A stretch of 64,000 bases of DNA. Source: Sinohyriopsis cumingii (taxonomy: Eukaryota > Mollusca > Bivalvia > Unionida > Unionidae). The notes below the pieces were generated by a model. That model was not told the origin of the DNA. It ran no database searches and saw only the letters and a program-made list of their open reading frames with translations. The translations under genes were made by a program, and so were the position numbers. The stretch spans positions 113,482,214 to 113,546,213 of the forward strand of contig CM068830.1 of NCBI GenBank assembly GCA_028554795.2. Reading direction: 5' to 3'. Shown in pieces: positions 8,933 through 63,685 of this stretch (the stretch's first letter is position 1; each line of letters starts with the position of its first letter).

Positions 8933-9290
8933 TTTCACCATTGACCGAAAGGTAAGTTTGTTCGGATCTTACCTTTCGGTCAATGGTGAAATCCAAGATT
9001 GTCCGAATGCAAAATTGCACTGTGAGTAGGGTTAATGTCTAGACGTCAAGATCGGCGAACAATTATTGCATTTTCTCCATTATGTCACAAACTGAACGAA
9101 GTGTGTCGAGCTGTTTTGAAAATTGAACTATTCTTGATTACGACTGGCCGAAGTTCGAAATTAGCAGACGCAATTAGGATAATATAGCAGTGTTGGAACT
9201 GCTGAGGGGTGCGGACCGGTGTCTTCCCTTGTGTTATATTATTACGGGTTAGAACCCCCATCCCTTGATTTTCTTTGTAACGAGCCCCTG
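8933..9290. repeat. Dispersed repeat family B, copy 2, with a 24-bp fold-back
   Basis: Bases 9041-9290 match 1933-2260 plus 2757-2800 in inverted orientation. At its left edge two perfect 24-bp arms (8933-8956 and 8968-8991) form a hairpin with an 11-nt loop. In copy 1 only one of these arms is present, near 2846-2869, so the second arm here arose by inverted duplication. Confidence 0.65.
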
Positions 9291-9845: not shown

Positions 9846-9942
9846 TTTGGTAATTTGCTGTTTGATGATCAATATATGTATATATAACCAAATACTTCTG
9901 AAGACCTCCCAAAAATATATGTTTAAATGCTACTAAAACATG

Positions 9943-10307
9943 AGTAGTGAATGGGGGTACTTTAGCCTCTATGGGAATTAGCGGTACAGGACCCCTTGGG
10001 ATCGTTTAGCCCCAATGGAAATTTAACATGGGGGAAAAATCGTGGGATCGTTTAGCCTCAAGGGGAAATTAACATGGGTGGGACAGTATAGCCTCAAGGG
10101 GAATTGAATATGGGAAATGGAATAGGGTGGGGACCCTGTTTTATTATGGTCCCGACCTGATAGGTCTATGGAAAGTGAACAGGGGAGAGGGATATAAAAC
10201 ACGCACACACACACACGCACACACACATATAAAATAAAAAAATAAAAAGGGTAGGCAATTGAAAGTCAATCTCTTTTCGAGAAATTGGAGTGGCCCTGAA
10301 AAGGGTC
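9943..10307. repeat. Left TIR of the 7.67-kb element
   Basis: It pairs with 17262-17616 in reverse complement. Inside are four imperfect iterations of a box reading approximately TTTAGCCTCAAGGGGAAATT (near 9960, 10006, 10048 and 10090), then a shared block including GGTCCCGACCTGATAGG, a CA/TG dinucleotide run, and at the inner edge the histone-type stem-loop and its purine box. The iterated boxes could bind the terminal protein, polymerase or integrase; this is inference. Confidence 0.8.
10292..10307 (-). terminator. Histone-type mRNA 3' stem-loop, minus strand, in the left TIR
   Basis: On the minus strand it reads GACCCTTTTCAGGGCC: a six-pair stem (one A-C mismatch) with the loop TTTC, preceded by AAA and followed by ACTCCA. 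Ten bases further downstream lies CTCGAAAAGAGAT (10269-10281 in reverse). It sits just after the minus-strand gene 10335-10562. The layout matches replication-dependent histone 3' processing signals. Confidence 0.7.
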
Positions 10308-10334
10308 TTTAGGTTTATGTTAATGTATCCATTA

Positions 10335-10562
10335 TCATAAAGGGCACCGCCTTGGTCTTCTTTTCCTTAGGCTGCGCCTCACTGTAGGACCGTAAATCAG
10401 GACTCTTTTCAGGCATTCTTGCCTCTCCACGTAAATCCTACTTATCCATAGGGTGGTGTCGGTCCTATGGACAAGTGTCCACTTGGACCGGACATACATG
10501 GGTATGTCCGTCCGAAACATCATTGTTGACACAAGGGTTGAAGATTGAACATCGGTCCACAT
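10335..10562 (-). CDS. Small basic protein, unrecognised
   Basis: A 75-residue open frame starting at the ATG at 10560-10562. A TATA box (TATAAATA, 10607-10614 on the minus strand) lies 45 bp before the ATG and a histone-type stem-loop lies 28 bp after the stop codon. The promoter, start, stop and 3' signal are all in place, which is why I accept such a short frame. The protein has a strongly basic C-terminus (RRSLRKRRPRRCPL) that could bind nucleic acid. I recognise no family. It is transcribed divergently from the gene at 10782 through a shared 220-bp promoter. Confidence 0.5.
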   Translation of the reverse strand: MWTDVQSSTLVSTMMFRTDIPMYVRSKWTLVHRTDTTLWISRIYVERQECLKRVLIYGPTVRRSLRKRRPRRCPL

Positions 10563-10781
10563 CTTGAGGCTCCGAGAACAGGTGAATCAATGCAGTGAAC
10601 TGCGTTTATTTATAGGTAGAGAAAGGATTGAAACGGATTGAGTTCATTGACCAATCCAAACACGCGTTACAAAATTCATTCAGCCCACGTCCAATCGGAA
10701 GAGAGCAGTCTGTGACGTCACGTGGTCTATATAGATTCGCTAGCGCCTGTGTGTAGTCAATATATGCGAGAGTTTTTGAAC
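10563..10781. promoter_or_regulatory. Divergent promoter with two TATA boxes, CRE, E-box and CCAAT
   Basis: Two TATA boxes face outward: TATAAATA (minus strand, 10607-10614) and TATATAG (plus strand, 10728-10734). They lie 45 and 48 bp from the ATGs at 10562 and 10782. Between them are CCAAT (about 10691), the CRE palindrome TGACGTCA (10713-10720) and an overlapping E-box CACGTG (10719-10724). This is a host-style RNA polymerase II promoter. Motif identities are seen in the sequence; function is inferred. Confidence 0.6.
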
Positions 10782-11306
10782 ATGACGGAAACTCAGAAAA
10801 CGATCTATTGGGGTGCATCAGCAGTGGAGACCGCCCAAGGGAACCCGGACTTACTTTCAGAAGAGGTGAATTGGGATTTTGTGGATTTTCTTACCTCGCA
10901 AGAATTTGTTCCGGAACCTTCGTCACCTTCATTACCGCACGTGGAGAATTTTAGACAGAGACAGAAAGAAGAATTGGAGAAATTTATACAACGGCAAAAG
11001 GAAGCGGAACAAGCTTTTCTCCTACAGCAACAGCAACAAGAAGAAGAGGTAAGAAAAAACAAGAAGAAGAAGCAAAGAAACAAGAGGGTGAAAGTCAAAC
11101 CGTCACGATACTATTGGACATTTTAGCGGAGTTAAGGAGTCTGAAACAAATGTATCAGACTTCTTTATCACGACTGAAGAGAACCTTCCCGAGCTAAACA
11201 CGCCAACCCTGTGAATAAGCCTACCGTACCACCCTTAGTGATTTCAACCAAATCATCGTCATCAGAAGTAGGCCTCGGCCGTGGCAAAGGCTTAAGGCAG
11301 TTAAAG
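10782..11306 (+). pseudogene. Glutamine/glutamate-rich coiled-coil protein, frameshifted
   Basis: The start is the ATG at 10782, 48 bp after TATATAG. The first 115 residues have an acidic N-terminus, then a long charged helix (QRQKEELEKF, LLQQQQQEEE) and a lysine cluster, ending at 11126. The coding character then continues in another frame (a leucine-rich segment with LLDILAELRSLK near 11110-11190) and in a third frame up to about 11306. I therefore read it as a longer gene broken by frameshifts. It ends 34 bp before a histone-type stem-loop. No family recognised; it could be a structural or polymerase-partner protein. Confidence 0.5.
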
Positions 11307-11339
11307 TTGATTGCTTAAACTCACCCCTACACCAAAAAA

Positions 11340-11355
11340 GGCCCTCTTAAGGGCC
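11340..11355 (+). terminator. Histone-type 3' stem-loop after the coiled-coil gene
   Basis: GGCCCTCTTAAGGGCC: perfect six-pair stem with the loop changed to CTTA, preceded by AAAAAA and followed by ACACA. The purine box CTCGAAAAGAGAT follows at 11366-11378, again 10 nt after the stem. The downstream 20 bp (ACTTTCAATTGCC) are the same as at the TIR copies. Confidence 0.65.
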
Positions 11356-11589
11356 ACACACGTCTCTCGAAAAGAGATAGACTTTCAATTGCCAATAACT
11401 AAAAAAAAAAAAAACATTTTACCCCTATACGTGTCTGTGTATGAGTGCGTGAGTGTAGGTTCTTATTTTAAAATCAAAAACCCAAAGACACTTACCTTTT
11501 ATAATTTTATTCTTTTATCAATATTTACAATTCAATTCACAATTCAAAACAAATCACTCTTGAAAAGTTCATTGACTTCTTCTGTCTCA

Positions 11590-12058
11590 TCATTTACTCT
11601 GTTTTTTCAATTTCTTCACAGACACAGTCTTTTCCTCTTCTTCCTCCTCACAGTCTTCCCTTCTTTTCTTCTCCAGTTTCTTTTTCTTTGCCTCTTGTGA
11701 ATAGAATTGTCTTCTTTCTTCGTCTGAAGAATCCCTCTCTTCTTCCTCTGAAGAACCCCTCTCTTCTCTCTTCTTTTGACTCCTCTTGTTTCTTTTTGGG
11801 GCAATCTGGAGACCAATGTCCTTTTTCTTCACAATAATAACAGGTATCTTGACTTTTGTCTTTTCTAACCCCTTTTTTTCTTTTTTGACGGTCTGAACAC
11901 TCTGAAGACCAATGCCCTTTCTTCTGACAGATATAGCAAGTATCTTCAGTTTTACCTCGAAAGGAAGGAGAGTAGTCCGTCGGCTGGTATGAAGAAAATT
12001 TTCTAATGACCCCTCGCAAAGCTCTGATGAAACGTTCGATTTGGCTAGTCTCTTCCAT
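11590..12058 (-). pseudogene. Double CCHC zinc-knuckle protein with charged tail
   Basis: I place the start at the ATG at 12056-12058, 52 bp after the minus-strand TATA box GTATAAAA (about 12110-12117). The upstream ATG at 12106 would be almost at the TATA box. Two CCHC knuckles follow: CYICQKKGHWSSEC and CYYCEEKGHWSPDC, the nucleic-acid-binding type of Gag and CNBP proteins. After the second knuckle one frame runs to 11648 as a basic tail, and another gives an acidic KKREERGSSEEE-type tail to 11590. A frameshift probably separates the original parts. Unlike its neighbours it has no histone-type stem-loop downstream; a minus-strand AATAAA lies near 11505. Confidence 0.55.
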
Positions 12059-12181
12059 CGTTGTGCTCGGTTTAAGAGTGAAATGAATAGTGAAAGGACA
12101 ACACATAGCCTTTTTTATACGACGGTCTGCGATGACTATTAATTAGCCCATTGTATTTAAACTTTGGTCATTTGACTTTTT

Positions 12182-15100
12182 GCTTTCAAGATCAAACGAT
12201 CCAATTCATTTGAGAAGAAAGAAGAAGAAAGTAAGAGGCAGAAACGTGATCTATCGCCTCGTACCAGGGCTGAAGTCTTGGCACAAATTCATGCCAGTGA
12301 TTTTGAAGATGACAATAGTGAACCAGAATCCAAACCCTCTAAACAAAGTTCACTACCCTTAGTTAACCCTGAAAAATACTATTCCATTCGAGAGACGGAA
12401 AAGCCCTCCTCTAGAAAATTTAGAACCACGGCTTACAAATACACGGTGAAATTTAAAGATTTCAAGGCCGAAGTACCGTTAGAGAAAACAGAAGGGTTCA
12501 TCACCAGGGTGTGGGATTCTTTGCTCACCACACTCAAGCGACAATGTCAACCCAAAGAAGACGATCGCTTGAGACTTTCCATACAACACGACGGTTTGAA
12601 ATCCCCTGTTTGGATCGAGTTTAGCGTCCCTGCAGAATTCATTGCTTCCAAAGTCATGGACAAGAATCAACACGTACAACAGTAGCTTCTCGTGGGTCGG
12701 TGGTTCTTTCCAGGGGTTTTCCGGGTTCTTCCTCCACAATTAATACTGGCCGCCATGTATAGCCTATCTTGTGCTGAAAAATGGCGTTAAATCCTACAAC
12801 AACAACAACAACACGTACAACAATCCAATGACCAGTTTGACATCACCGATGGAAAAGCCACACTGGACATGACCCACGTCTCTCCTCCTCAAGGGACAGG
12901 ACGCAAAAAGATGTTATAGGTGGACGACCTTCGCAGCACCAAAAAGAGTCTCGTCCGAATTAACAACCCTCAAGACCAGATGCGTTTAGCCCGAGCCATC
13001 GTGGTGGGACGAACTTATGTCAACAAGAACGACACGGTAGAATGGAAAAGAGCCTGGAAAACTATTCGACAATCGGACCGAGCCAAACAACGAAACGAAT
13101 CAGAACTCTTGTCACGACAAGCTGGCCTGTCCAATGACACATCCTGCAGCATTTCTGAGATGCAAAAATTGCAAGATGTCCTAGCTCCACGCTACACCTT
13201 GAAAGTGCACCCTCAAGAAGTGCGCAGACCTCTGTTGTTTCGAGGCCAAGACTTTAAGGATGGAAAATACATTCACCTTTATCATCGCGATGACCATTTC
13301 GATACCATTACCAGTATCACCGCATTCCTGGGATACGGTTATTACTGTGAGAAATGTGACTATGGCTATAACAATCGAGAGCAACACAAACATTGCGGAT
13401 CGAAATGTTCAGGATGTTTGGCCTGTCCACCCTGTCTGAACGAAGGGCAAGAACCACTGCATTGTCCTGCTTGTCTGCGCACGTTTGTCAGCCCTGCCTG
13501 TTACCAACAACATCTGAAGACGCAAGGTTCACAGCAGAAATGTGCTTGTCAACTCCTGAGATTGTGCACTACCTGTGGACAAGGCATACGTACCAATACT
13601 GTCAAGGCACACGTATGTCGAGGAAAGAAAAAATGTCACATTTGTCATCACATCGTGGACTTGGAACACCAATGATACGTGCAAAAATACCAACCCCAAC
13701 CAGAGAAAGAGGATGGTCACAAGAATAAAAAGGCAATTTCATCTTTTTCGATTTCGAATGCATGCAAAAGAGACCGGTATTCACATTCCTAATTTCTGCG
13801 TGGCTCATCGAGCGTGCGAAAGGTGCATTCAAGAACCTATCTTCAGTCATTGCCCTCACTGCAGCAAGATTCCTGGAGGGCGTGAAAAAATCTTTCGGGG
13901 ACCGAACACGCTAGCCGATTTCGCCCAATGGGTCTTAGACCCCATCGACAAGACGTGGAGCCAAGAGGACATCGAATGTTACGGAGATTGTCATCGTCAT
14001 GCTACGGTGATGGCTCACAATTTCTCCGGATACGATGGACAGTTTCTTTTGAGATAATATACGGAACAAGGCACCGAGCGTCCTAAAGTCACTTTGAACG
14101 GAGCCAAAATTATTTTCATGCAAGTGGGACAAGTGCAGTTTAAAGATTCGATGAGTTACTTGGCCATGCCTTTGAGTCGAATGCCTAAAACGTTTGGAAT
14201 GACAGAAATGGCTAAGGGGTACTTTCCACACTTTTTCAATACGGAAGCCAATCAACACGCCGTTCTACCCCATTTACCTGAGGTTCACTATTACGACCCC
14301 GACAACATGCGTACCGAACAACGAGAAGCTTTCTACGCTTGGTACCAGGTCCATGCCTACGACCCTTTCGACTTTCAGGAAGAAATGCTAAAGTATTGTC
14401 GTTCCGACGTAGACATTTTACGACGATGCTGTGGAAAATTTCGAGAACTGTTCATGGAACACGGAGGGGTCGATCCTTTGAAAGAAGCTTGCACCATTGC
14501 CAAAGCGTGTTCCTTAGTGTACCGCCAACGATTCATGCCTGAAAACACCGTGGCTGTCATCAGTCCTCAAACGACCAACTATGTCAAACGTTAATACTCG
14601 GTCAAAGCCCTACGCTGTTTACATTACTTGTGTGACAAGGAAGACAAATGGATTCAGCATGCCCGCAACGGAGGGGGCGAAAAGACCATCAGAACGCATT
14701 CGGTCGATGGCTGGGACCTAGAAAACCCCAAGCGCGTGTACGAATTTAACGGTCACTTATTTCACGGATGTCCCGTCTGTTACCCTGACCGCAGCACTAA
14801 AAATCAGTTTTTACAACGAACCATGGAAGACTTGTACCAGACCACTTGTCAGCGACGTCTAAAGTTAGAACAGGAAGGATACCAAGTGGTGGAACTGTGG
14901 GAACACGAATACGATCACCGTTTGAAAACCGATCCCGAGTTTAAACGTCTCGTGGAAAGTTAACACGGACTTATACCATCCCGTCTTACCTCATCATTGC
15001 CAGGGCAAACTGATGTTTCCCTTGTGTCGTACTTGTGCCGAAACGTGCAACCAAGATTAACCTTGTCAGCACACCCAGGAAGAACGGGCCTTGATGGGGA

Positions 15101-16197
15101 CGTGGGTCAGCATAGAATTGTTCAAAGCTCTGGACATGGGAAAACAACTGTTAGAAGTGTACGAAATTTGTCACTTTCCCAAGACACAACAATACCACAA
15201 GGGTGACCCCAAGCAGAAAGGCATTTTCGCAGACTACGTGGATGCCTTTTTGAAACTGAAGCAAGAAGCCAGATGCTATCCGTCCTGGTGTCACACTCCC
15301 GAAGACCAAAAGACATTCAAAGAGAAATACTGGGCACAAGAAGGCATCACTTTAGATCACATCGAGAAAAACGAAGGCAGGCGATCGTTTGCCAAAGTGA
15401 TGTTAAATTGCTTGTGGGGTAAAATGGCACAACGACCGTGTTTATCCAAGACGGAATATTTGACAGAACCTTCTCGCTACTTCCAGATGATTCACGACAA
15501 AACTAAATTCATGAAACACGTGGACGTCGTTCGCGAAAATTTGATCTTGGTCAATTACGAAGAAGATCTGGACTTTGTACAAGACGACCCCTTTGGAAAT
15601 GTCATCATTGCGGCTTACGTGACAGCTCATGCTCGCTTAAAATTGTACGAAGCTTTAGAACTGTTAGGGGAACGCGTCCTGTACTTTGACACGGACAGTT
15701 GCATTTACATCGATCACCCGAGTCAACAACACCCTGACATCGAAGGAGACCGTTTAGGAGCCTGGACAGACGAGCACCCCGACGACAAGATTCTAAGTTT
15801 CGCCAGTGGTGTTCCTAAAAATTACGGCTACGAATACCGGGACAAACAAAGAGAAGTGCACACGAAGTGTAAAGTGAAAGGATTGACTCTGAATTATCGT
15901 ACCAGTCGAGTGGTCAACTTTGGGGTATTGAAAGAAGCCTTGCAATCTGGAGAGGATGGAAACTTTAAAGTGGCCACCTATCAACCCAACAAGATTGTAC
16001 GTTTACCCACGTCGACCCTTGGAAAAAGTCTATTAAATCGTGTACCAGAAGCGAGTGCGACTTCCCAACCACTTTACTTTGCTGTATGGACACGTTGGTA
16101 TCAATCATCCCGCCTCTGCACTCCCAAGAAAAAAGTAAAAGGAGACTGGGGAAGAAGATGTGTGTGTGGTGCCAGGCCTGGAAGGTGCCATCATTAA
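12182..16197 (+). pseudogene. Protein-primed family-B DNA polymerase (decayed)
   Basis: The gene copies DNA from a protein primer in Polintons. Pieces in several frames read in order. First is an N-terminal region (12182-12684), interrupted by a small insertion. Next is a zinc-rich segment (YYCEKCDYGYNNREQHKHC, 13340-13400). The exonuclease region follows, with FDFE readable in a third frame near 13745-13760, AHNFSGYDGQFLL (14015-14053) and YCRSDVDILRR (14395-14430). The palm has motif B KVMLNCLWGK (15394-15423) and motif C YFDTDSC (15680-15700), and the thumb side runs to 16197. In-frame stops lie near 12917, 13673, 14055, 14592 and 14960. The palm motif-A segment expected between about 14960 and 14970 is absent: the flanking family segments are directly joined, so roughly 70 residues are deleted. 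It is not functional. A histone-type stem-loop follows 27 bp after the stop. Confidence 0.85.
12682..12808 (+). mobile_element. 127-bp short retroelement insertion with 14-bp target duplication
   Basis: The insertion is bounded by CAACACGTACAACA at 12668-12681 and again at 12809-12822. It ends in a CAACAACAA-type tail, as in SINE or LINE 3' ends, and contains a stop codon that truncates the polymerase N-terminal region. Its body is the reverse complement of part of repeat family B near 1937-2025. It dates after the element's last activity. Confidence 0.8.
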
Positions 16198-16223
16198 CCA
16201 GGTGTCACTGGAGTTAAAAAAAC

Positions 16224-16239
16224 AGCCCTTTTCAGGGCT
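16224..16239 (+). terminator. Histone-type 3' stem-loop after the polymerase gene
   Basis: AGCCCTTTTCAGGGCT: perfect six-pair stem with the canonical loop TTTC, preceded by AAAAAAAC and followed by ACCCA. Both flanks match the metazoan histone consensus. A diverged purine box (TCTAGAAAAGAAAT, 16249-16262) follows at the same ~10-nt spacing. The A-T closing pair replaces G-C at the base of the stem on both sides, a compensated change. Confidence 0.75.
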
Positions 16240-16497
16240 ACCCAATACTCTAGAAAAGAAATAGTAATCGATTTGCCAATGTGTGTATGTAGAGTAGTGT
16301 GAATATGAACACTATTTTTTCTTGTGTGTGTGTGTGTGTTTGTGTGTGTGTGTTTTGCAAGCGCTCAAGTACATTAATGTGGTTGGTACATTATTGGGTT
16401 TAATAATAATGCTCTGCGTGTGTGAATAGTAGATTTGGGGTTTGTTTATTGCTGTTTCACGTATGTGGATAGTAGATAATATGAAATGATAAAAGTA

Positions 16498-16651
16498 GGG
16501 GATGTTTTCCTTCACGTCCGCGCGTTTTAAGTAATGATATAGGTAATATAAATTTTATGTCTTTGGGGATGTTTTCCTTCACGTCCGCGCTTTAACTATA
16601 AGAACACACAAGGTTTGATGTTCGAATCCTTCTAAGGAATAAACAAAGAAG
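16498..16651 (+). promoter_or_regulatory. Promoter with a duplicated 26-bp box and TATA
   Basis: An exact 26-bp block beginning GGGGATGTTTTCC and ending GTCCGCGC occurs at 16498-16523 and 16565-16590. It is followed by TATAAGA (16597-16603), 49 bp before the ATG of the next gene. Spacing is similar to the other TATA-ATG distances in this element. Confidence 0.5.
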
Positions 16652-17210
16652 ATGGAGGTGACAAAATTATTCAACAATTTGAGAGATAGCTATTTTTGGA
16701 TCATGGATGGGACTTATGTAGTAGAAAGACTGAATAAGGAAGGAAGATTTGAAGGTAGCCTGAACGATGTGAAGAGTCTTGGAATAGCAAAAGATCAAAT
16801 AGGGGGAATGATTGAGGAAGAAGTAGAAAGGATCAGAGGATTCATTGACCCACCTTACGTGAGAGTACTCAGTAGGTACTTTAAAGGAGGCCTTGGATCA
16901 TATCATAGAAGATAGGAGCTTCCTAGAAAATAGCTTTCATTGGACTGACTGGTGGTACGTAAAGTGGGGTTGTAACCAGTTGATAAAAGCAGAAGAACTA
17001 ATTAGAGAGGTAATGAAAGTAGAAGTGTTGAAGATAAAAGAAAAATGGAGCAAAGAGAGAAAGGAAGAAGAGAAGAAGAAGAAATTAGAGTTTGAAAGAT
17101 TAAATAACAACTGGATGAAGCTCCAACAGAAATTCAGAGAGATGGGCCATCCTGACTGGATAACAGAGGAGTAGAAGAAGAGGAAGAAGAAAGGAATAAT
17201 GAAAAAAGTG
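16652..17210 (+). pseudogene. Charged coiled-coil protein, one frameshift, unrecognised
   Basis: The frame from the ATG at 16652 (WIMDGTYVVERLNKEGRF) runs to 16915. The same coding character continues in the next frame from about 16893 (DHIIEDRSFLENSFHWTDWW) to 17174, with a lysine/glutamate-rich helix (KWSKERKEEEKKKKLEF). A one-base slip in the GGAGGCC run near 16888 is the simplest explanation. I recognise no family. It ends about 50 bp before the right TIR stem-loop, so the TIR would supply its 3' end. Confidence 0.5.
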
Positions 17211-17261
17211 AGGACTTGGTGGAAGAAGTGGAGGAGTTAGAAGAAGAAGAAGAAACCCAAA

Positions 17262-17277
17262 GGCCCTTTTCAGGGCC
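17262..17277 (+). terminator. Histone-type 3' stem-loop in the right TIR
   Basis: GGCCCTTTTCAGGGCC: perfect six-pair stem, canonical TTTC loop, preceded by CCCAAA and followed by ACTCA. CTCGAAAAGAGAT follows at 17288-17300. Except for one 3'-flank base this is indistinguishable from a metazoan histone gene 3' end. Confidence 0.8.
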
Positions 17278-17616
17278 ACTCATAGGTCTCGAAAAGAGAT
17301 ACACTTTCAATTGCCTTAGCCCCATTTTTTTATTTTGTTTATTGTGTGTGTGTGTGTGTGTTTTATACCCCTCTTCCCTGTTCCCTTTCCATAGGCCTAT
17401 CAGGTCGGGACCATATTAAAATAGGGTCCCGACCCTATTCCATTTCCCATATTCAATTCTCCTTGAGGCTATACAGTCCCACCCATGTTAATTTCCCCTT
17501 GAGGCTAAACGATCCCACGATTTTTCCCCATGTTAAATTTCCATTGAGGCTAAACGATCCCAAGGGGTCCTGTAATGCTAATTCCCATTGAGGCTAAGGT
17601 ATCCCTATTCACTACT
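17262..17616. repeat. Right TIR of the 7.67-kb element
   Basis: Reverse complement of 9943-10307 with scattered differences and length variation in the TG run (17344-17362). It contains the same iterated TAGCCTCAA-type boxes and ends ATTCACTACT, directly before the AACATG duplication. Confidence 0.8.
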
Positions 17617-18195
17617 AACATGCCAATACCATCAAAATGCTCTCAAATATATATAAATATACCTAAATTTACTCGGATGTTTCTATTCTATGTCACAACT
17701 TCCGTCTTTATTTTCATAGGCCTGATAATTATTTCTTTATTCGCATTAATTCAAGTTGTATTTTCTGCTGCTGAGTTCGTTCGGCAGTTTGTTTCGTTCT
17801 ATTATATGCAAGCTCCGACAATTTAAATAATTATCTGGTAACTGACAGTCATGGGCTGAATTAATGACATCAACCTTGGTTCTTTCGAGTTCTCTGTCGC
17901 AACTGATAAGCAACTGTATTGTGAAAGGCACAATACTGTACTGCACCTTTTTGGTAACTTTTGACGTTGTAAAGGTGACTACATTCATATACGGGTGTAA
18001 TTGTAAAGTCAAATTAGAATTAAAATAATGTTATGTTTTATCTTTTATTGAAGTGGCGAAAATACATTAATATAGCAGTTATTTCCTAAATACAGATGTA
18101 TCTGTCATACAACTAGCAATAAAAGCGGTTACAACCTTATATAATTTATTTCACAATGCATTAATTATGTACATGCGCATGTTACAAAATGTTTA

Positions 18196-20252: not shown

Positions 20253-20894
20253 TCAGCGTTTGTGGCTAATACCATATTCAACAGTATTGTCATCCGTTGA
20301 TGGATACGCTATCATATGTACCGCATGAATAACTGTTGAGAAGTGATTGACGGCGTACCACTTTCCCGGTCCTGGTGTTGATACATCTCCACTCTTGTAC
20401 CAAAGGATTGCTAGCTGCCGTCTGTTCTCAAAATCTCCAGATGGTTTGAATTCGGTGTTCAGAGTTTTGTAGGCGATATCATTTGTCCCGTTTGCGTATG
20501 GGTATGTCACTCTTATTTTCATGTTAACAGCATATGCCAAAGCTATAATTGTCCACGCATTGGAGAATTTTCCGATGACGGCAGAGTCCAGACAAGACTG
20601 TGCGTAACTGCTAGAAAACAGTTTTATTTGAGGTCTCTGTGTATGCAGCATGTATTGTTCCCCGCTTGTAAGAAGTTGTATACACGTGTGGTACCTTAGT
20701 TTCACTGACATGGTTTCGTTACCACAAAGCAAGATAGAGACGGCATTGAAGAAGCAGTCTCCATCAGCGCTTGTCGTCAGGGGGATTCCATTTATGTGGT
20801 CGACGTAATTGTCCATCACCTCAGCAGCGACTCGATCAACGTCTGGCAAATAAGACGTTGGCTCTTCTGGAATTTGTAATTTCACTTTGAACAT
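20253..20894 (-). pseudogene. OTU-like cysteine protease domain of the MULE-type gene
   Basis: This 213-residue open frame carries the OTU signature: SADGDCFFNAVSILL with the nucleophile cysteine, and WYAVNHFSTVIHA with the histidine near the C-terminus. OTU domains are deubiquitinases and occur fused to transposases in some animal transposons. A further acidic linker with stops continues at 20040-20234 and 19892-20119 before the transposase. I call it part of a decayed fusion gene rather than a stand-alone host deubiquitinase, because the same strand continues directly into transposase sequence. Confidence 0.65.
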
Positions 20895-21742
20895 TAGCTC
20901 ATGCTGAACAGCCTCCTTTAGTTTGTCTATGTTTTTGTATGCCGCCGCCTTGAGAGAAAAGAAAACCGCATTAAAATAAGCGATAAATACTGGACTTAAT
21001 GCAGATTTTGAGTTTCTTCAGACATTAGTAATATGCATGAAACGCGAATAGCATCGTGATATGTTGTATCATCCCAAAACGGCATGGGTAGACGCATGTA
21101 TCAAGGATATGAAGATCGGTAGCGTTCTATGAGATGGCGTTATGCGCACGGACAGACAAATGAAGAGGTACTCAATAAGATACCTATACATATTATAGAC
21201 TGTTGTATAGCTTGAAATCTCCGCTTCACATCATTAGTTTTAGCCTAGAAATACGTGGTACCATCACAAAACGGCATGGTTAGATGAACGTAGCCTGTAT
21301 ATAAAAATATTTAAATTCGCAAGCGAAAATGAATTTTAAAAAAATACAAACATTTTTATTTTGCATCTGTACAAATGTTGTTTGGCACAGATGGCTTTAA
21401 AGTGGTTAGAAACTTAATCAGTTGCTATCAAATTTATCCAAACCGGTGGTTGTTTACAACCCATATTGAACATGCCTATAGGGTAGTGAAGTGCTGCTGT
21501 AATTCGATTCACGCGTGTTACAACCACAAGTAGCCGAGTATACACGCGTTACGTCATTTACCATTGTGGCGCTACAAAGACAGTTCAAATGATTTACAAC
21601 AAATATATAAAAGTTATAGTGGTCACCTGTTGTTGTTTGTCAAAATCGTCTTGCGAGAAAGCCAAACCAATATACTCGTTGGAAATCAACGATGTTGACT
21701 CTAAAACTCCTGGGACTTGCATCGTACATTTGTGTACTGATT

Positions 21743-33142: not shown

Positions 33143-33720
33143 CTAATCAGATGATCGTCGTAGTAGATCAGTACGATACCATCGTTGGATAAGTCTGATT
33201 CTTGCTCTCGCGTTAGTAAGGTCTGTTAACTTGATGATCCTTTTGTTTTTGTCAGCATCAGTTCGATGTTTACTGACACGTGATTCCGTACGAACATGGC
33301 AATGGCTTCGTAGAGCGATTCCGGATGATGCAAGATCACGTCCTTCACAAAGACCTCTTGTCGCTAGACAGTCTCTATATTTCTGGTCATATATCTTTAC
33401 GAATTTTCTGCATGTCGTACACCGATTGCCCGCCATGTCCACGATGATATATTTCACTGTTCTCATTTCACTGATCAGTAACGCCATATTAAAAGGAACT
33501 CCTCGCTGATACGATAGGATCTTATTGAATATTTTCTGATAGGTCAGCATAGCCTGTTTGGCACTATTCTGTTTGGTCTCCATTCAGGGTTCGAGACGTT
33601 TGATCAGAGTCTGCACGGCTAGTCCAACTCCGGACAAAATCAACATCATCGGATTAGCCACCGCTTAAGTACAAATAACTCCCGTGGTTGTCACGATCAA
33701 CGGAAATGATTATCAGGAGG
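33143..33720 (-). pseudogene. Two-span membrane protein of the older Polinton, C-terminal part
   Basis: The part abutting the insertion encodes a hydrophobic segment (MMLILSGVGLAVQTL, about 33610-33660). A soluble helix follows (LTYQKIFNKILSYQRGVPF, 33450-33560), then a tail to 33143. The arrangement matches the membrane protein of the young element (39323-39847), which occurs widely in animal Polintons. The N-terminal part continues on the other side of the young element at 50461-50600, and the reading frame is continuous across the junction when one copy of GGAGG is counted once. A stop codon lies near 33586. Confidence 0.6.
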
Positions 33721-33970
33721 AGCAGCAGAGAGGGTGAACAGACCATAGAATTCCGACAAAATAAATAAAACAAACAAATAAATCATCTCGTAGAAAGGTC
33801 CAGATTTTACAAATGAACTTTCCTTGAGATGTTTATTTTTGTAATGACCGATTGTGCTAATAAAACCTCAGTTCGAAATAGTATCTGAAAAAATAAAGTA
33901 CTCTACGTGTTTATTTATTTTTTGTTTATTTTTTTGACGACCAACGTTGGTAGGTACCCTCTCTGCTGCT
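33721..33970. repeat. Left TIR of the young Polinton
   Basis: 250 bp, reverse complement of 50211-50460, and the same as 59100-59349. The TIR is itself bounded by a 15-bp inverted repeat: it starts AGCAGCAGAGAGGGT and ends ACCCTCTCTGCTGCT, so the inner border looks like another element end. Confidence 0.9.
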
Positions 33971-33976
33971 ATTAAT

Positions 33977-34159
33977 TTACCACCATACCAAGTTTGATGA
34001 ATATTTTTGAACTCGTTCTCGCTGTCGTTTTTCCTCATCTGTTTCATCTTCATCTGAATCTTCGGAATTTGTTCTATGTTTCAAGTAATATTCAAGTTCT
34101 GATGGTGGTTTTTCTATTTTTGGATTTATGTTCTTTCTGTGTTTATAATATATCATCAA
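33977..34159 (-). pseudogene. ATPase-like fragment and small acidic frame beside the left TIR
   Basis: The minus strand just inside the TIR contains ~27 bp nearly the same as the packaging ATPase gene near 50056-50082, reading NIHQTWYGG in one frame. In a different frame, 33977-34159 is an open 60-residue frame with an acidic/basic stretch (NSEDSDEDETDEEKRQRERV). The second copy of the element keeps that frame with one substitution (34152 versus 59531). I favour a vestige of an ATPase 3' end left by rearrangement of the element's terminus, but a small real protein is possible. Confidence 0.4.
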
Positions 34160-34213
34160 ACTTCTGTATTCCTCTTTTGCTGATATTAATTAAATTATCA
34201 TGTTATAATAAAA

Positions 34214-35431
34214 ATGGTACATCCAGAATCTCATATTGCAAGAACAGCACGAGAACGATTAGAAATAATTAAAAAATTTCTTCCTGTCAGAGACTCATTT
34301 AGAAAAAACTTGCAAGCGCAGCAAGAAGCACAAGTTGAGTATGAAGAGGACACTAAAAAACTGTTTAAACCCGTCACTACAGCTACTGAGAAAGCTGCGG
34401 CGGCTGCTGAAAAAACTATATGGGGAGATATTGCGGAGGAAGATGAGAGGAGGAAAAAGGGTATTTTTCCGGTATTAGAAAAAACAGCAAGAAGAACCAA
34501 ACAGACAAAGAAGATTTTACGAGACCTTCCACCTGGCATAGCCAGGGAAATAGCCGCAGCTCAACCTCCACCTGTTGATGAGGAAATACTTGAAGGTATT
34601 GGAGAACTTCGTACTGAAGTCGCCGATGTGAGAAAAAAACTTGCATCTAAATCCAAACCAGCAGGAGAAAACGTAGAATTAATTGCAAAATTTAACGAAG
34701 GAGTTGTTGAGGAAATTAGAAAAACTGAAAGAGAGAGATTACCTGAAGCAATATTAAATAGTATATCTAATAAATCTAGTATTTTAAAACCCCGTTTTGA
34801 AAAAACAAATGATGATAATTTCATTAAATGGATATATCGCGTATATTACGACAAAAAACAAGCTAGAGGTCCAGAATTTGAAAAACTTAAAGAAGAAGTA
34901 AAAAGACTTTATAGAGAGAGATGGGAACAACCAAAACAAGGAGAGTCTTTCCAGTATCAGCTTCCTCCACCTCTGCAACAAATAGAACAACAACAACAAT
35001 CTTCGCCACAGCAAAAGTTGAAGTCGGAAATTAAAAAGACTAAAGAGCTAGTTAAATTACTCACCTCGAAGAAAATTCCTTCACCTTTACGTAAAATTTC
35101 TGCACCGAAAATGACATTTACACCGACAGATTCACCACATGGATTTCGAGAAGGTTCACCCCCGGCCACCACTGAAGTACTTACTCCGGTAATGCAACCA
35201 CCAGTATTTAAAACACCTCAAGATGAACCTAAAACAGGATCTGGTTTATGTCCTGATAATATCATCAATGACGTATCACGGTTAGAAGTTCTCATAGGAG
35301 GAAAACGTGCCGGAAATAATTCACCAGAAATAATTAATGAAATAGCTGATATTTGTCGGCGACTATTTCAAGGTGGTATCATGGATATTGGCGCTTACCG
35401 AGAACTTATTGATGAGCTCGTTGATGACTAG
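34214..35431 (+). CDS. Coiled-coil protein, unrecognised, 405 residues
   Basis: The start ATG is three bases after TTATAATA (34203-34210), the same box as at other genes here. The protein is highly charged: helical N-terminal third (EKAAAAAEKTIW), long charged helices, and a proline/glutamine-rich linker around residues 250-275 (PPPLQQIEQQQQSS). A predicted small helical domain ends it (SPEIINEIADICRRLFQGGI, ELIDELVDD). Short C-terminal domains like this recur in first-position proteins of invertebrate Polintons, but I cannot assign a function; a scaffold, core or terminal protein are possibilities. It leads a block of morphogenesis genes on the plus strand. An identical copy is at 59593-60810. 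Confidence 0.8.
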   Translation: MVHPESHIARTARERLEIIKKFLPVRDSFRKNLQAQQEAQVEYEEDTKKLFKPVTTATEKAAAAAEKTIWGDIAEEDERRKKGIFPVLEKTARRTKQTKKILRDLPPGIAREIAAAQPPPVDEEILEGIGELRTEVADVRKKLASKSKPAGENVELIAKFNEGVVEEIRKTERERLPEAILNSISNKSSILKPRFEKTNDDNFIKWIYRVYYDKKQARGPEFEKLKEEVKRLYRERWEQPKQGESFQYQLPPPLQQIEQQQQSSPQQKLKSEIKKTKELVKLLTSKKIPSPLRKISAPKMTFTPTDSPHGFREGSPPATTEVLTPVMQPPVFKTPQDEPKTGSGLCPDNIINDVSRLEVLIGGKRAGNNSPEIINEIADICRRLFQGGIMDIGAYRELIDELVDD

Positions 35432-35459
35432 TTGTTAGATAAATGGTAAATAAAATAAG

Positions 35460-35894
35460 ATGATTGTGCATGATAATCATCGTAAACCCACACAGGTTAG
35501 AGCGGTAAACTCACGATTACCAATCTATGAAGCAATTTACGGAAATGGACTTGGTGATGTTATTCGAGGATTATTCACGAGGATAGCTCCAAAAGTAGCA
35601 CCCGTCGCAAAACAATTATCGATGAAGGCTATTGATATTGTTCGTGATAAAGCTCCTGGAGCAATTGTCAATGTTGCTGGTAAGGCGTTCTCGGCGATCA
35701 AAGAAAGATTATCACGATTATTGCGACGAAAACAACAACCACCGGTGAAACTGGCAAGTACTGAGGTGATGCCTGCAGACGTAAGTAAAATAATAAATCA
35801 GGCTGCAAATCAAAAACTAGCGGCGATATCTGAAGAAGCAGAAAAAAATATAACATCAAATTTAATAGCAGGAAGTGGTCTTCGTCGACGATGA
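35460..35894 (+). CDS. Putative minor virion protein with amphipathic segment
   Basis: 144 residues, lying between the coiled-coil protein and the major capsid protein. Residues about 28-60 (GNGLGDVIRGLFTRIAPKVA) form a glycine-led amphipathic helix of the kind found in membrane-active minor capsid proteins of adenovirus-like viruses. The middle is basic (RLSRLLRRKQ) and the C-terminus ends in GLRRR after GSG, reminiscent of a protease-processed tail. Start at 35460 follows an AT-rich AAATAAAATAAG. The role (endosome escape or genome core) is inferred from position and composition. Confidence 0.65.
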   Translation: MIVHDNHRKPTQVRAVNSRLPIYEAIYGNGLGDVIRGLFTRIAPKVAPVAKQLSMKAIDIVRDKAPGAIVNVAGKAFSAIKERLSRLLRRKQQPPVKLASTEVMPADVSKIINQAANQKLAAISEEAEKNITSNLIAGSGLRRR

Positions 35895-35927
35895 TCATCA
35901 TTTGGAAAAATGGTAACTATAATAAAA

Positions 35928-37370
35928 ATGTTCAGGCGCGAATCAGACCCAGCATTTGATATGGAGGCACCTGTCCTTAAGTATGAATCTATACGTGATT
36001 ATCAATTTTATTCCTATGACGCAAGACTACCAAATCAGCGGGGGAGAATCGAATTACAGGTTCATGATACAAGTAGATATTTCTTGCCCGCTGAGGCGTT
36101 TATTGAAGTAGAAGGTAGACTTGTAACGAATGTTGTAGCTAATACGGCATATGCTGCTAATTTGCGTGTTGGTTTTGTCAACAACGGGATCATGGCGTTG
36201 TTTGATAGCGCCACATACATGATTGATGGAAAAAATATTGAATCAGTTCAGAAGGATGTCGACGTTGCTACAACAATAATTGGTCTGGCGAGATATTCTG
36301 ACGACTTTACAAGATCAGCTGGTCCAACAATGATGTTTGCTAAGGATATTACCAACAACGCTGATCATGTTCAGTATACCAAAGTACGAACACCAGTAGC
36401 TACTGCCGATGCACAACCAGTTGATTTTGAACACGCAGACGCACCGGGTGCTGCTTTTGATATTATAGGAAGCGTTAATGCGACTTACAACCTAGGATTT
36501 GCAACACGCCGAGCAGCGCTGTCGGGAAATAATAGAAATTTTTCATGTGCAATTCCATTATCTCACATCTTTGGATTTTGCAGAAATGTTAGAAAAGTCA
36601 TCTTTGGAGCTAAACACACAATTGTGCTCGTAAGAAAAAGTGATGATAATGATGCAATCTGGCGAGGTGCTGGTGTTGCCGAGGGTAAAGTAAATATATC
36701 AAAACTTTCATTGTGGATGCCAGTAATGACTCCATCTATTACTGAAGAACAAAAATTACTATCTTTTATGGATCAAGGCGGTAAATCATTGTTATCATGG
36801 TTAACAGTAACCACAGATGCTGCTCAAAGCAATATTAATGGTTTATTTACATGGCATATAGCATCACAACAAGGTGTTTCTGCACCACGACATATTTTTA
36901 TTGCACTACAAGATAATGCTCGGACGAATAATCAAGAACGTTCACATATGATATTTGACAACCTTGGAGTTAGTGAAGTTTCTTTACGGATAAATGGACA
37001 TCAAGAACCAGCCGAGGATATACAACTAAATTATGCACAAAATCATGTAGCGCGCGCATATCATCGTTTAATGTCATTCATGGGACGTGATCAAAATATA
37101 GATACCGGGTTGCAAATATCACAACTAGATTTTACAGGTCTATATCCGATTTATTATTTTTCACTAGAACATCTTGATTTATCCAAACAATCTGTTGTTG
37201 ATATACACTTTCGAGCTCATGTTACTAACCCTCCTCCTGATATACCCGGTCCACCAGTTGTTCCCGGCTTCTACAGAGCGATCGCGGTCATACTTAGCGA
37301 CAAGGCCATGTTACTTGAAGGTGGCAGTGGTCGAATGAGGGTTGTTGATGCACCGGTGGAAAATCTTTAA
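35928..37370 (+). CDS. Major capsid protein (double jelly-roll)
   Basis: I choose the ATG at 35928 (480 residues) because it lies three bases after TATAATA (35918-35924), rather than the ATG at 35910. The length, the N-terminal region (DYQFYSYDARL), the central variable loops and the C-terminal LYPIYYFSLEH...RAHV...FYRAIAVILSD pattern fit the Polinton major capsid protein, which builds the icosahedral shell. The decayed older Polinton has the matching C-terminal pattern (NLYPIFYFDISN) near 52350. It sits between the minor protein genes and the protease, in normal morphogenesis order. The second copy is at 61307-62749. Confidence 0.85.
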   Translation: MFRRESDPAFDMEAPVLKYESIRDYQFYSYDARLPNQRGRIELQVHDTSRYFLPAEAFIEVEGRLVTNVVANTAYAANLRVGFVNNGIMALFDSATYMIDGKNIESVQKDVDVATTIIGLARYSDDFTRSAGPTMMFAKDITNNADHVQYTKVRTPVATADAQPVDFEHADAPGAAFDIIGSVNATYNLGFATRRAALSGNNRNFSCAIPLSHIFGFCRNVRKVIFGAKHTIVLVRKSDDNDAIWRGAGVAEGKVNISKLSLWMPVMTPSITEEQKLLSFMDQGGKSLLSWLTVTTDAAQSNINGLFTWHIASQQGVSAPRHIFIALQDNARTNNQERSHMIFDNLGVSEVSLRINGHQEPAEDIQLNYAQNHVARAYHRLMSFMGRDQNIDTGLQISQLDFTGLYPIYYFSLEHLDLSKQSVVDIHFRAHVTNPPPDIPGPPVVPGFYRAIAVILSDKAMLLEGGSGRMRVVDAPVENL

Positions 37371-37404
37371 TCGTGCTATTTAGAAAAATATATTTTATAT
37401 AAAA

Positions 37405-37857
37405 ATGTCGTATAGTCATGTTAATGTTACTCTGACCCCGGGTCAGGTAAAAAAGCTTCAATCAAAAACCGCCAACAAATGCGGAACTAAAATATCACTA
37501 AAACGAGATCATATTAGTGGTGGTCCAAACAAATTATCGCTGACAAATAATCAGATTAAACATTTCAATAAAGCCCTAGAATCAAAAACTGGAGTTCAAT
37601 TCCATCTCTCCCCGAGCGCCATCAAAGACATGGTTAAAACGGGTGGTATATTCCCACTATTTGCGGCCATTCCGGCATTAATAGCTGCGGCTGCTCCAGC
37701 CATAGCAAAAGCGGCCGCGTTAGGTGCTGTTGGAACAGCCGCTGGAATGGCACTAAAGAAAGCAACAGGGCAGGGATACAAAAAAAAGGGACGCGGTCTA
37801 AGATTACCGGGATCTCGTTGGGGGAGAGGCCTAAGGCTTCCAGGGTCATTTCGTTAA
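37405..37857 (+). CDS. Membrane-active minor virion protein (pVI/PX-like)
   Basis: 150 residues. Two similar N-terminal repeats (TLTPGQVKKLQSK and SLTNNQIKHFNKA, each followed by a KIS/VQFHLS-type strand) precede GGIFPLFAAIPALIAAAAP and an alanine-rich hydrophobic helix (residues about 78-120). Then comes a basic, glycine-rich tail with RGLRLPGS twice. The same plan is seen in the older Polinton at 52875-53160. Such proteins are thought to disrupt membranes during entry. Start follows TATATAAAA. Near the end, an A8 run (37780-37787) lies at the A AAA AAG position where a -1 shift would enter the protease frame. Confidence 0.75.
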   Translation: MSYSHVNVTLTPGQVKKLQSKTANKCGTKISLKRDHISGGPNKLSLTNNQIKHFNKALESKTGVQFHLSPSAIKDMVKTGGIFPLFAAIPALIAAAAPAIAKAAALGAVGTAAGMALKKATGQGYKKKGRGLRLPGSRWGRGLRLPGSFR

Positions 37858-38288
37858 ACGTTCCATCATCAAATTTTGATTTACTTGATGCTGCTAAAAA
37901 ATTAAAAATATCCGCCTTTAGAGGTGTTTTTATGCGAGATCAATTACCGAAACAACCAAACAAACTTGAAACAGGTATTATTAATCTTGACAAACGTTCC
38001 GGACCCGGTACTCATTGGGTATCATACGCGGTTGATCCGCGTGGAATTGTTTATTTTGATTCGTACGGGTTAGCTCCACCTGTTGAATTTATCAAGTATG
38101 TCGCACCACTCCACGCAACAACCAAAGTTTGGTATTCAACGCTACCCACACAAACAATGACAGATCCGCCAATATGCGGCCGTGAAGTAATTAATGTACT
38201 CGACGCTATATCAAAATCATCCAGGCCGCCACATAAAGTCGTGCACGATTATACAAGCAACCGATTTGTTGCGCGTAAAGCATTTTAA
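37818..38288 (+). CDS. Adenain-type cysteine maturation protease
   Basis: The C5/Ulp1-like catalytic residues are visible: His in GTHWVSY (codon 38013), Asp in YFDSYG (38058), Gln in LPTQTMT (38151) and Cys in PPICGRE (38175). It would process capsid precursors, as adenain does in adenovirus. The 5' end is unusual. Conserved protease sequence begins upstream of the only nearby ATG (37932), and the frame is open back through the end of the preceding gene without any ATG. I give 37818 as the start of a TTG-led frame, but expression as a -1 frameshift product of the preceding gene at 37780-37787 fits better. Confidence 0.8.
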   Translation: MGERPKASRVISLNVPSSNFDLLDAAKKLKISAFRGVFMRDQLPKQPNKLETGIINLDKRSGPGTHWVSYAVDPRGIVYFDSYGLAPPVEFIKYVAPLHATTKVWYSTLPTQTMTDPPICGREVINVLDAISKSSRPPHKVVHDYTSNRFVARKAF

Positions 38289-38306
38289 ACAACGGATCTT
38301 ATTATA

Positions 38307-39314
38307 ATGGTTGACATTTACGGAAGATCTTCTACTAGTAAGAAAATAAAATCCGACGTTGATCTGTCAAAGTATGCGACTAAAGATGACCTCGCTGATA
38401 TTATGAACCTTGCTGGAGTTGATCCAGATGAGGTTGTTATTTTTCAAGATCGATATGGTAAACTAAAAACCAGCAATATCAAATGGAATGATATAGTCCG
38501 GCGAGTAATTGGTGCAGTTACGGATAATATTCCCGTGTTTACTGATAGCGGTAAAATCAGAGATTCAAGTATGTCACTTAAAACCATCAGAGATGAAATT
38601 GCAAAAAGTGTTGCTAATCGCGTGAGAAACACCGGTGATACAATGATGGGTGAACTCAGCATGAACGGAAATAAAATAGTAGTTTTAGCGGATCCAACAT
38701 CTGACGAAGACGCAGCAACAAAAAAATACGTCGACACCGTAGACGGTAAATTATCCACGTTACGGGCCGAATATGATGTTCACGTAACCGGTTTTTTAAG
38801 GCATCGAAGAAATTTTCAAAGGACCGATGATTCCATAAGTAAGTTCTTTGGAACTCCTTCCGTCATTGACATGAAACTCGTTGATATAAAAAATAACCTA
38901 GACACGATCAAACAAACACAGCAAGACGTCGTAGCAGGAATTCCTGAGATTGTCAGTAAAACCAATTTGATTAAAATTCCAGCTGCAATAACTCCCGGGC
39001 ATATCACAAACATCGTATGCACGGTATCATCGGGATTTGCAACATGGTCGCAGCAAAATAATACTATCAAATATACCGCAACAGTCACTGGCGTGTACAG
39101 GCTGTCTGTGTTTTCCGCCGCTAAGTTTGAAATATTTACAACGTTTCCATGGCGTCATTCCACAGACAGGTTTTCCGGGGTTGTATCTGTTGTATTAAAT
39201 AGCGGAACCGAAGAAATATTTATTCTGGAAGTAGCTGATAAGGAATTAACCGCAACATCCTTCTGGTGGTGTTTGGAATTTGTAGCTGAAACACCTCAAT
39301 TGGTTACGGCATAA
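38307..39314 (+). CDS. Fibre-like attachment protein with phage tail-fibre shaft motif
   Basis: 335 residues. The middle carries the short-tail-fibre type motif NTGDTMMGELSMNGNKIV followed by LADPTSDEDAATKKYVD (residues about 112-147), shared with bacteriophage collars and fibres. A helical stretch follows, then a beta-rich C-terminal head (about 235-335; SSGFATWSQQ, GVYRLSVFSA, WWCLEFVAE). The start follows TTATTATA directly. This is the likely receptor-binding spike; the shaft motif indicates a trimeric rod. The copy at 63686 runs off the window. Confidence 0.8.
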   Translation: MVDIYGRSSTSKKIKSDVDLSKYATKDDLADIMNLAGVDPDEVVIFQDRYGKLKTSNIKWNDIVRRVIGAVTDNIPVFTDSGKIRDSSMSLKTIRDEIAKSVANRVRNTGDTMMGELSMNGNKIVVLADPTSDEDAATKKYVDTVDGKLSTLRAEYDVHVTGFLRHRRNFQRTDDSISKFFGTPSVIDMKLVDIKNNLDTIKQTQQDVVAGIPEIVSKTNLIKIPAAITPGHITNIVCTVSSGFATWSQQNNTIKYTATVTGVYRLSVFSAAKFEIFTTFPWRHSTDRFSGVVSVVLNSGTEEIFILEVADKELTATSFWWCLEFVAETPQLVTA

Positions 39315-59099: not shown

Positions 59100-59349
59100 A
59101 GCAGCAGAGAGGGTGAACAGACCATAGAATTCCGACAAAATAAATAAAACAAACAAATAAATCATCTCGTAGAAAGGTCCAGATTTTACAAATGAACTTT
59201 CCTTGAGATGTTTATTTTTGTAATGACCGATTGTGCTAATAAAACCTCAGTTCGAAATAGTATCTGAAAAAATAAAGTACTCTACGTGTTTATTTATTTT
59301 TTGTTTATTTTTTTGACGACCAACGTTGGTAGGTACCCTCTCTGCTGCT
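59100..59349. repeat. Left TIR of the second Polinton copy
   Basis: Corresponds base for base to 33721-33970, including the inner and outer 15-bp AGCAGCAGAGAGGGT borders. Confidence 0.9.
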
Positions 59350-59592
59350 ATTAATTTACCACCATACCAAGTTTGATGAATATTTTTGAACTCGTTCTCG
59401 CTGTCGTTTTTCCTCATCTGTTTCATCTTCATCTGAATCTTCGGAATTTGTTCTATGTTTCAAGTAATATTCAAGTTCTGATGGTGGTTTTTCTATTTTT
59501 GGATTTATGTTCTTTCTGTGTTTATAATATGTCATCAAACTTCTGTATTCCTCTTTTGCTGATATTAATTAAATTATCATGTTATAATAAAA

Positions 59593-60810: not shown

Positions 60811-60838
60811 TTGTTAGATAAATGGTAAATAAAATAAG

Positions 60839-61273: not shown

Positions 61274-61306
61274 TCATCATTTGGAAAAATGGTAACTATA
61301 ATAAAA

Positions 61307-62749: not shown

Positions 62750-62783
62750 TCGTGCTATTTAGAAAAATATATTTTATATAAAA

Positions 62784-63667: not shown

Positions 63668-63685
63668 ACAACGGATCTTATTATA

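Follow-up and report, generated by a model that had tools for sequence, protein, structure and literature searches.

Predicted histone-type 3' ends on the small terminal genes of a Polinton/Maverick family in Sinohyriopsis cumingii

The stretch considered here (64,000 nucleotides (nt) of contig CM068830.1 of Sinohyriopsis cumingii; hereafter the window) contains at positions 9943-17616 a 7,674-bp element bounded by the 6-bp target duplication AACATG. This copy has decayed and suffered internal deletion; it belongs to a high-copy family, which by its polymerase, integrase, borderline ATPase, repeats and target duplication we assign to the Polinton/Maverick elements. Genes A, B, X and Y of this copy are each followed by a stem-loop and a purine box resembling those that end animal histone mRNAs. 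Scores are given for the Rfam model Histone3 (RF00032) and for R1, a covariance model built solely from five host histone 3' ends (alignment A2). The ends of the element and the features of the small genes are as follows, with the basis in brackets.

9937-9942, target site duplication AACATG, left (sequence)
9943-10316, plus strand, left terminal inverted repeat, 89% identical to the right arm in inverted orientation (375-column alignment)
10269-10281, minus strand, purine box CTCGAAAAGAGAT of gene A, of the histone downstream element type (sequence; R1 alignment to host histone boxes)
10292-10307, minus strand, stem-loop of gene A, GACCCT-TTTC-AGGGCC, A.C mismatch, 5/6 pairs (Histone3 26.0 bits; R1 44.4 bits)
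10335-10562, minus strand, gene A, 75 amino acids (aa), ending 27 nt ahead of the stem-loop (coordinates calculated from measured distances)
10782-11330, plus strand, gene B, frame broken in the window copy, 190 aa in L002 and L003 (19 homologues)
11340-11355, plus strand, stem-loop of gene B, GGCCCT-CTTA-AGGGCC (Histone3 33.8 bits; R1 52.4 bits)
11366-11378, plus strand, purine box CTCGAAAAGAGAT of gene B (sequence; R1)
16108-16197, plus strand, C-terminal remainder of gene X, in frame with a polymerase piece (longer X frames share nearly the same end residues)
16224-16239, plus strand, stem-loop of gene X, AGCCCT-TTTC-AGGGCT, compensated A-T outer pair (Histone3 33.0 bits; R1 55.0 bits; 19,078 exact genome modules)
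16250-16262, plus strand, purine box CTAGAAAAGAAAT of gene X (sequence; R1)
16652-17174, plus strand, gene Y, two frames in the window copy, 182 aa in L004 (frame list, locus comparison)
17253-17616, minus strand, right terminal inverted repeat (same alignment as the left arm)
17262-17277, plus strand, stem-loop of gene Y, GGCCCT-TTTC-AGGGCC (Histone3 37.8 bits, over the gathering score; R1 62.4 bits)
17288-17300, plus strand, purine box CTCGAAAAGAGAT of gene Y (sequence; R1)
17617-17622, target site duplication AACATG, right (sequence)

A first-pass annotation of this DNA had described four 16-nt stem-loops, three of them with a TTTC loop and one with a compensated A-T pair, each followed by a purine element, and had read them as histone-mRNA 3' processing signals. 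All of these parts are present in the sequence where they had been placed, the box being CTCGAAAAGAGAT at three hairpins and CTAGAAAAGAAAT at one (16250). The Histone3 gathering score is reached at one of the four sites (17257, 37.8 bits), and at a relaxed threshold over 12 kb all four are recovered (E from 3.5e-8 to 8.6e-4). In the 64-kb window R1 ranks the same four sites first (rough E from 1e-10 to 1e-6), the next-best of the seven listed matches scoring 19.3 bits, and its alignments span the A-rich 5' flank, stem, loop, ACC-type 3' flank, GAAAAG box and a TTGCC block. The histone 3' end anatomy (6-bp stem, 4-nt loop, 5' flank rich in A and 3' flank of the ACC type) is found at these sites, with five of the six pairs at gene A. 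The minus-strand module at 10307 and the plus-strand module at 17262 are not fully independent, since each sits in one arm of the terminal inverted repeat. The hairpin at 16224 follows a small gene that has lost its front part, with a polymerase frame in its place. Judged by sequence, the four stem-loops are histone-type 3' end signals.

The reference for this comparison is the host's own histone genes, which form a tandem unit of about 8.3 kb in the order H3-H4-H2B-H2A-H1. The first-pass annotation had held that host histone genes lacking the stem-loop/purine-box arrangement would speak against its proposal; all five genes have the arrangement, with the same hairpin and GAAAAG box at the same spacing as in the element modules. 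In a scan that demanded AAAA within 29 nt of the stem and left its position free, the A-run of the box begins 13-15 nt past the stem in 21 of 22 element modules and 14-15 nt past it in the five host genes. The spacer from AC to the box, for which the pattern allowed 8-14 nt, is 11 nt in 100/100 G-C modules among the matches listed, and in the host it is 11 nt for H3, H4 and H2B and 12 nt for H2A and H1. The element modules thus have a purine-rich downstream element at a fixed distance, as the host histone genes do. The distance from the stop codon to the hairpin is 15-36 nt in 17 of the 22 element rows and 54-87 nt in the other five, and 27-38 nt in the host genes; two R1 matches, the module of window gene B (loop CTTA) and that of gene X in L004, escaped the scan behind these rows. 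A third block, TTTGCC or TTGCC, is common to host and element ends about 40 nt after the stem, past the purine box.

A genome-wide Histone3 search gave 75 scored matches from 589,472 first-look candidates. Eight of the best were retrieved (L001-L008), and all eight are copies of this family, with scores of 44.1-45.6 bits that exceed those of the host histone genes (35.0-39.4 bits). One hairpin per locus is present by construction, since the loci were chosen by Rfam matches; a second hairpin was found in 8/8. In 12 further loci, R1 gave 20 sites at E <= 5.1e-4, distributed over 10 loci, and no match in L074 or in the core-gene locus L075. The genome search for the module that had been proposed in the annotation yielded 17,097 exact modules with a G-C outer pair and 19,078 with the compensated A-T pair, while modules with this pair broken (A.C) number 235; the reversed-pattern control is 0 for all three. 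These counts are support and not a measured rate, since the copies are related and other single-base departures are uncounted. Among the places listed, minus- and plus-strand G-C modules form pairs about 1.1 kb apart. In a count of base pairs over 26 rows (21 element, 5 host), 96.8% of the cells are paired and 7 cells are changed on both sides, values not reached in any of 500 shuffles. A chance origin of the hairpins was rejected on the R1 ranking in the window and on the genome module counts against zero in the controls.

Taken together, the less damaged copies have five small genes that end in hairpins: A and B, divergent, at the left end and W, X and Y one after another at the right. Gene A encodes 76-77 aa in L002, L003 and L007, and homologues of gene B elsewhere, metagenome records included, are 56-91% identical. 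Longer X frames (105-150 aa) are found in L004, L005, L008 and L076, gene W (129 aa) was seen only in L076, and the Y frames are of 132-182 aa, with a 215-aa frame running through the hairpin in L008. A frame of at least 60 codons ends 10-45 nt ahead of the hairpin at 17 of 23 modules; the six without such a frame appear to be broken copies. The earlier statement that the hairpins lie just after reading frames has to be qualified for the window copy, where the frames ahead of the hairpins at 11340 and 17262 are broken. The Y slot holds two seemingly unrelated frames before the same kind of 3' end (L001, L005 and L006 versus L004 and L008), like an exchangeable cassette. The proteins of A, B, W, X and Y have no Pfam match above cut-off and no histone domain, so that the terminal genes would be histone-like at the RNA level and yet are no histone genes. 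An acidic-aromatic stretch is conserved in the alignment of gene B, which also has a basic stretch close to coiled-coil-like sequence, and our guess is that its product might be a nuclear regulator; a synonymous/nonsynonymous count between two copies of this gene gave 7 and 12 differences, too few to use.

Beyond the 3' ends, the host histone unit and the element have one common 23-nt piece, GATGTTTTCC(A/T)TCACGTCCGCGC. In H2B it begins 107 nt ahead of the start codon and in H1, with one mismatch, 105 nt ahead; at H4 the GTCCGCGC end of the motif stands alone, and a 4-mismatch antisense copy lies between H2B and H2A. The window has two copies, both upstream of gene Y.

16501-16523, plus strand, promoter motif copy 1, one mismatch to H2B (match to host H2B and H1 promoters)
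16568-16590, plus strand, promoter motif copy 2, just before the TATA-like box of gene Y, one mismatch to H2B (match to H2B)

In the right-end copies (L001, L004, L005, L006, L008, L044, L076 and the window) the motif precedes X and/or Y, and also W where that gene was read, often just ahead of a TATA-like box, and in L001, L004, L005 and L008 it is identical to the H2B motif over the 23 nt. It was not found in L075. The 2.9-Gb genome contains 30,300 exact matches, with any base accepted at the variable place, and the control none. On the first 6.7 Mb of contig C1 the places listed form 42 clusters, 38 of which have a same-strand hairpin module no more than 20 kb away (in the shifted control a mean of 5.4 and at most 12 over 500 shifts). 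In 35 pairs the cluster lies 12.8-17.6 kb after a same-strand G-C module, probably that of gene B, and this distance suggests that complete family members would be roughly 20 kb long. On the same part of C1 the motif lies at most 2 kb upstream of 57 of the 66 A-T modules, with a computed distance of 421-515 nt in 51 cases (for the minus strand the computed value is too large by 13 nt); the motif-to-hairpin distance at host H2B is 519 nt.

Core genes of the family bear on its Polinton/Maverick assignment. Its polymerase is a DNA polymerase of family B, organellar/viral type, recognised as PF03175 in two pieces (E 2.7e-10 and 1.1e-5, the second, at 25.0 bits, slightly below the cut-off of 25.8). 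No integrase occurs among the reading frames of the deleted window copy, according to the frame list and Pfam; in L075 there is one, with an rve domain (PF00665, E 2.6e-14) and a chromodomain (PF00385), and the named relatives among 120 integrase matches listed come from oysters and lancelets. The ATPase of L075 is borderline (Pox_A32, 23.3 bits versus a cut-off of 22.8), and the candidate adenovirus-type protease of L076 is below cut-off (Peptidase_C5, E 0.005). Three frames of L075, without a Pfam match, are called candidate capsid genes from gene order and resemblance alone, and comparison of one candidate capsid protein with solved structures gave weak matches alone (E 0.4-0.7). For this protein, the polymerase piece and gene B, no confirmed relatives were found in viral contigs. 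In a longer copy two BIR (inhibitor of apoptosis) genes directly follow the polymerase (L075:63-521 and 752-1219).

Possible rearrangements were also seen in the family. Divergent pairs of polymerase copies occur 12-14 kb apart (for example C12:35412984-/35426946+, C9:110981966-/110995170+ and C17:115743556-/115755790+), and in L003 the A and B ends meet at a junction that falls within the purine box; possibly these are inverted dimers or products of template switching. In the window a short repeat ending in (CAA)n, a possible short interspersed element (SINE), is inserted in the polymerase gene (12686-12820), and a similar stretch lies near position 2000 on the minus strand.

The other genes of the element seem to lack such 3' ends. 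The window copy retains two of these genes.

11648-12106, minus strand, gene C, CCHC zinc-knuckle protein, AATAAA 136 nt past the stop (Pfam; no GGCC(C/T)TTT within 300 nt)
12278-16107, plus strand, remnant of a DNA polymerase B gene, now split over several frames, with the deletion junction near 16107 (PF03175 in two pieces; alignments)

In the window and in L003 the CCHC gene has AATAAA or ATTAAA 133-136 nt past its stop; for the candidate protease gene the distance to AATAAA is 116 nt. According to the first-pass annotation, the hairpins end genes for replication proteins, and the module was to be sought beside other Polinton polymerase genes. This part is not supported: the genes concerned are small accessory ones, and in a script scan of the 1.5-kb flanks 28 of the 30 retrieved polymerase loci lacked a perfect hairpin with a purine box, the other two being the window copy (L045) and its near-identical twin L044 (99.9%). 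A BIR frame stands beside the polymerase in 23 of the 30 loci, the seven without it being the window copy, the twin and five others. We therefore rejected the hairpin as the end of the polymerase gene; in the window copy a deletion joins the polymerase frame to the end of gene X. R1 found no match in the 10-kb stretch of L075 that carries the two BIR genes, the ATPase, the integrase and the candidate capsid genes, and a 5-pair antisense hairpin without a purine box, seen there in a looser scan, was taken as chance. Since the core genes of L075 lack R1 matches and the CCHC and candidate protease genes end near AATAAA or ATTAAA, the mRNAs of the element appear to end in two different ways.

We suggest, with a probability of about 0.84, that the family divides its genes into a class with polyadenylated mRNAs and a class of small terminal genes that mimic histone genes and are probably gated by S phase. 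The core genes (polymerase, BIR, ATPase, integrase, candidate capsid and protease) together with the CCHC gene would make up the class without the histone hairpin. The terminal genes would be built in the histone manner, with a short single frame, a stop mostly 15-36 nt before the stem-loop and the downstream element at the host spacing, and W, X and Y would in addition use the H2B/H1-type promoter motif. In the histone pathway, as described in PMC7026596, SLBP binds the stem-loop, the U7 small nuclear ribonucleoprotein (snRNP) binds the downstream element, and CPSF73 cleaves 4-5 nt past the stem, leaving no poly(A). By analogy, host SLBP would bind the element hairpin, U7 snRNP would pair with the GAAAAG box, and CPSF73 would cut a few nucleotides past the stem, giving terminal-gene mRNAs without a poly(A) tail. 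Such mRNAs would be made and used alongside histone mRNAs in S phase, when the element DNA can be copied. What the sequences themselves show is the anatomy of the modules, their resemblance to the host histone ends, their spread and their covariation. The common promoter motif strengthens the case for S-phase regulation, which, like the cleavage, the lack of poly(A) and the role of the proteins, we infer.

Several observations weigh against this interpretation. A poly(A) signal, AATAAA or ATTAAA, lies at most 200 nt past the hairpin in 8 of the 22 element rows and one of the five host rows (H4), so that transcripts could be polyadenylated beyond it. Neither Rfam nor a pattern search of the host genome turned up a convincing U7 gene whose 5' end could pair with GAAAAG: the best Rfam U7 match (29.3 bits, E 0.27) is below cut-off, and a U7-like pattern gave 12 matches versus 11 in the control, with no convincing stem in the 11 of the 12 that were folded. 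The best Rfam match, L009 (C14:81357783), with an Sm-like site and a stem, was rejected as U7, its 5' end CUUUCUU not being complementary to GAAAAG. The promoter motif was not found at host H3 or in the left-end loci L002, L003 and L007 with genes A and B, and it is not strictly a histone motif, since two looser copies (2-3 mismatches; L074:3255 and 6802) occur in host DNA next to an element end; no histone gene was seen there, and they may mark other genes. The thousands of modules represent related copies and no independent events. Two other measures of the pair count are weak: 2 pairs changed on both sides are matched in 18 of 500 shuffles and 3 further pair types in all 500. Finally, gene A of L002 has lost its purine box, and in class B the hairpin (mean conservation 0.92) is conserved no better than the untranslated region before it (0.96) or the sequence after it (0.90-0.95).

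Among the other explanations, the one that survives best accepts real histone-type 3' ends and assigns them to compactness independent of poly(A), or to escape from controls on poly(A) RNA, with S-phase timing a by-product. The left gene pair, very compact with its two modules about 1.1 kb apart and without the H2B/H1-type motif in the three loci named above, would fit this explanation; however, W, X and Y share a host promoter motif that compact 3' ends alone would not need, and other genes of the same element manage without such ends, so that we regard it as unlikely. Still less probable is that a histone regulatory cassette was captured once and has been multiplied as a passenger with no present function. 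All copies are indeed related and their modules spread by copying, and the class B values just given would agree with it. The hairpin, however, is conserved above the coding end in the four classes compared (class A, 0.98 versus 0.81; B, 0.92 versus 0.87; W/X, 0.98 versus 0.76; Y, 1.00 versus 0.72), the Y slot is filled by different frames that share one type of 3' end, and diverged homologues of gene B exist elsewhere. An accidental resemblance of element DNA structures, such as a terminal repeat or replication signal, to histone stem-loops is barely credible and was rejected on the counts of frame ends, for although two of the four window hairpins lie inside the terminal inverted repeats, the modules after B, W and X lie outside them, long frames end just ahead of the hairpin on the sense strand only (17/23 versus 0/23 antisense), and the modules match the host histone ends in the sequence of loop, A-rich flank, ACC-type flank and purine box, a likeness that a DNA cruciform could do without.

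The division into a polyadenylated and a histone-like, S-phase-gated class can be extended, and to this extension we give a little more than even credence. The regulatory genes would be under the host histone programme (promoter factor, SLBP/U7 and possibly the histone locus body) and the core genes under poly(A), entry into S phase would switch the element on, and with its tens of thousands of hairpins the family might also sequester SLBP or U7 in the manner of a sponge. If the division is true, the family is a natural experiment on the purpose of the histone 3' end, with the signal placed on up to five genes in thousands of copies, and the arrangement a new means by which a DNA parasite senses and exploits the host S phase. 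Its thousands of variant hairpins and boxes also form a large natural variant set for the processing machinery.

Outside the element, the window contains a second virus-like element at 33.7-50.2 kb with a double-jelly-roll domain, integrase, ATPase, a phospholipase A2-like domain and a 1,205-aa frame with a helicase domain; neither Histone3 nor R1 finds a histone hairpin in it. Positions 33709-38621 and 59087-64000 form a 4,915-bp direct repeat, 99.9% identical at a 25.4-kb spacing, as in a tandem array. At 8933-8991 there is a perfect 24-bp inverted repeat with an 11-nt spacer, similar to a miniature inverted-repeat transposable element and giving weak false microRNA matches, and a minus-strand frame at 20253-21017 has a borderline match to an OTU-like protease (23.1 versus a cut-off of 23.3).

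To our knowledge, histone-type 3' ends in animals have been described essentially for histone mRNAs alone. The annotation knew of no described Polinton with such ends, and this is consistent with our search, which in the part of the open-access literature it covered found no mobile element or virus with a histone-type 3' end. In IMG/VR viral contigs histone-hairpin patterns gave first 0 and then 19 stretches, none with a rightly placed GAAAAG box as judged by eye. With other Polinton/Maverick (adintovirus-like) elements the family shares terminal inverted repeats, the 6-bp target duplication, polymerase B, an integrase with a chromodomain and a borderline Pox_A32-type ATPase; what sets it apart is that its small terminal genes have 3' ends of the histone type and promoters like those of histone genes. 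With the replication-dependent histone genes of the host it shares the stem-loop, the spacing, the GAAAAG box, the short stop-to-hairpin distance and the promoter motif (H2B, H1), whereas its small genes encode non-histones, without a Pfam histone match. The nearest parallel is provided by the virophages Sputnik and Mavirus. The genes of Sputnik end in the hairpin signal of Mimivirus (PMC6723459). The element family would be a cellular parallel to such virophages with 3' signals of their giant-virus host. In the virophages, however, these signals are those of the giant virus and lead to polyadenylation, whereas in the present family they are those of the animal's histone genes and would lead to a tail-less mRNA.

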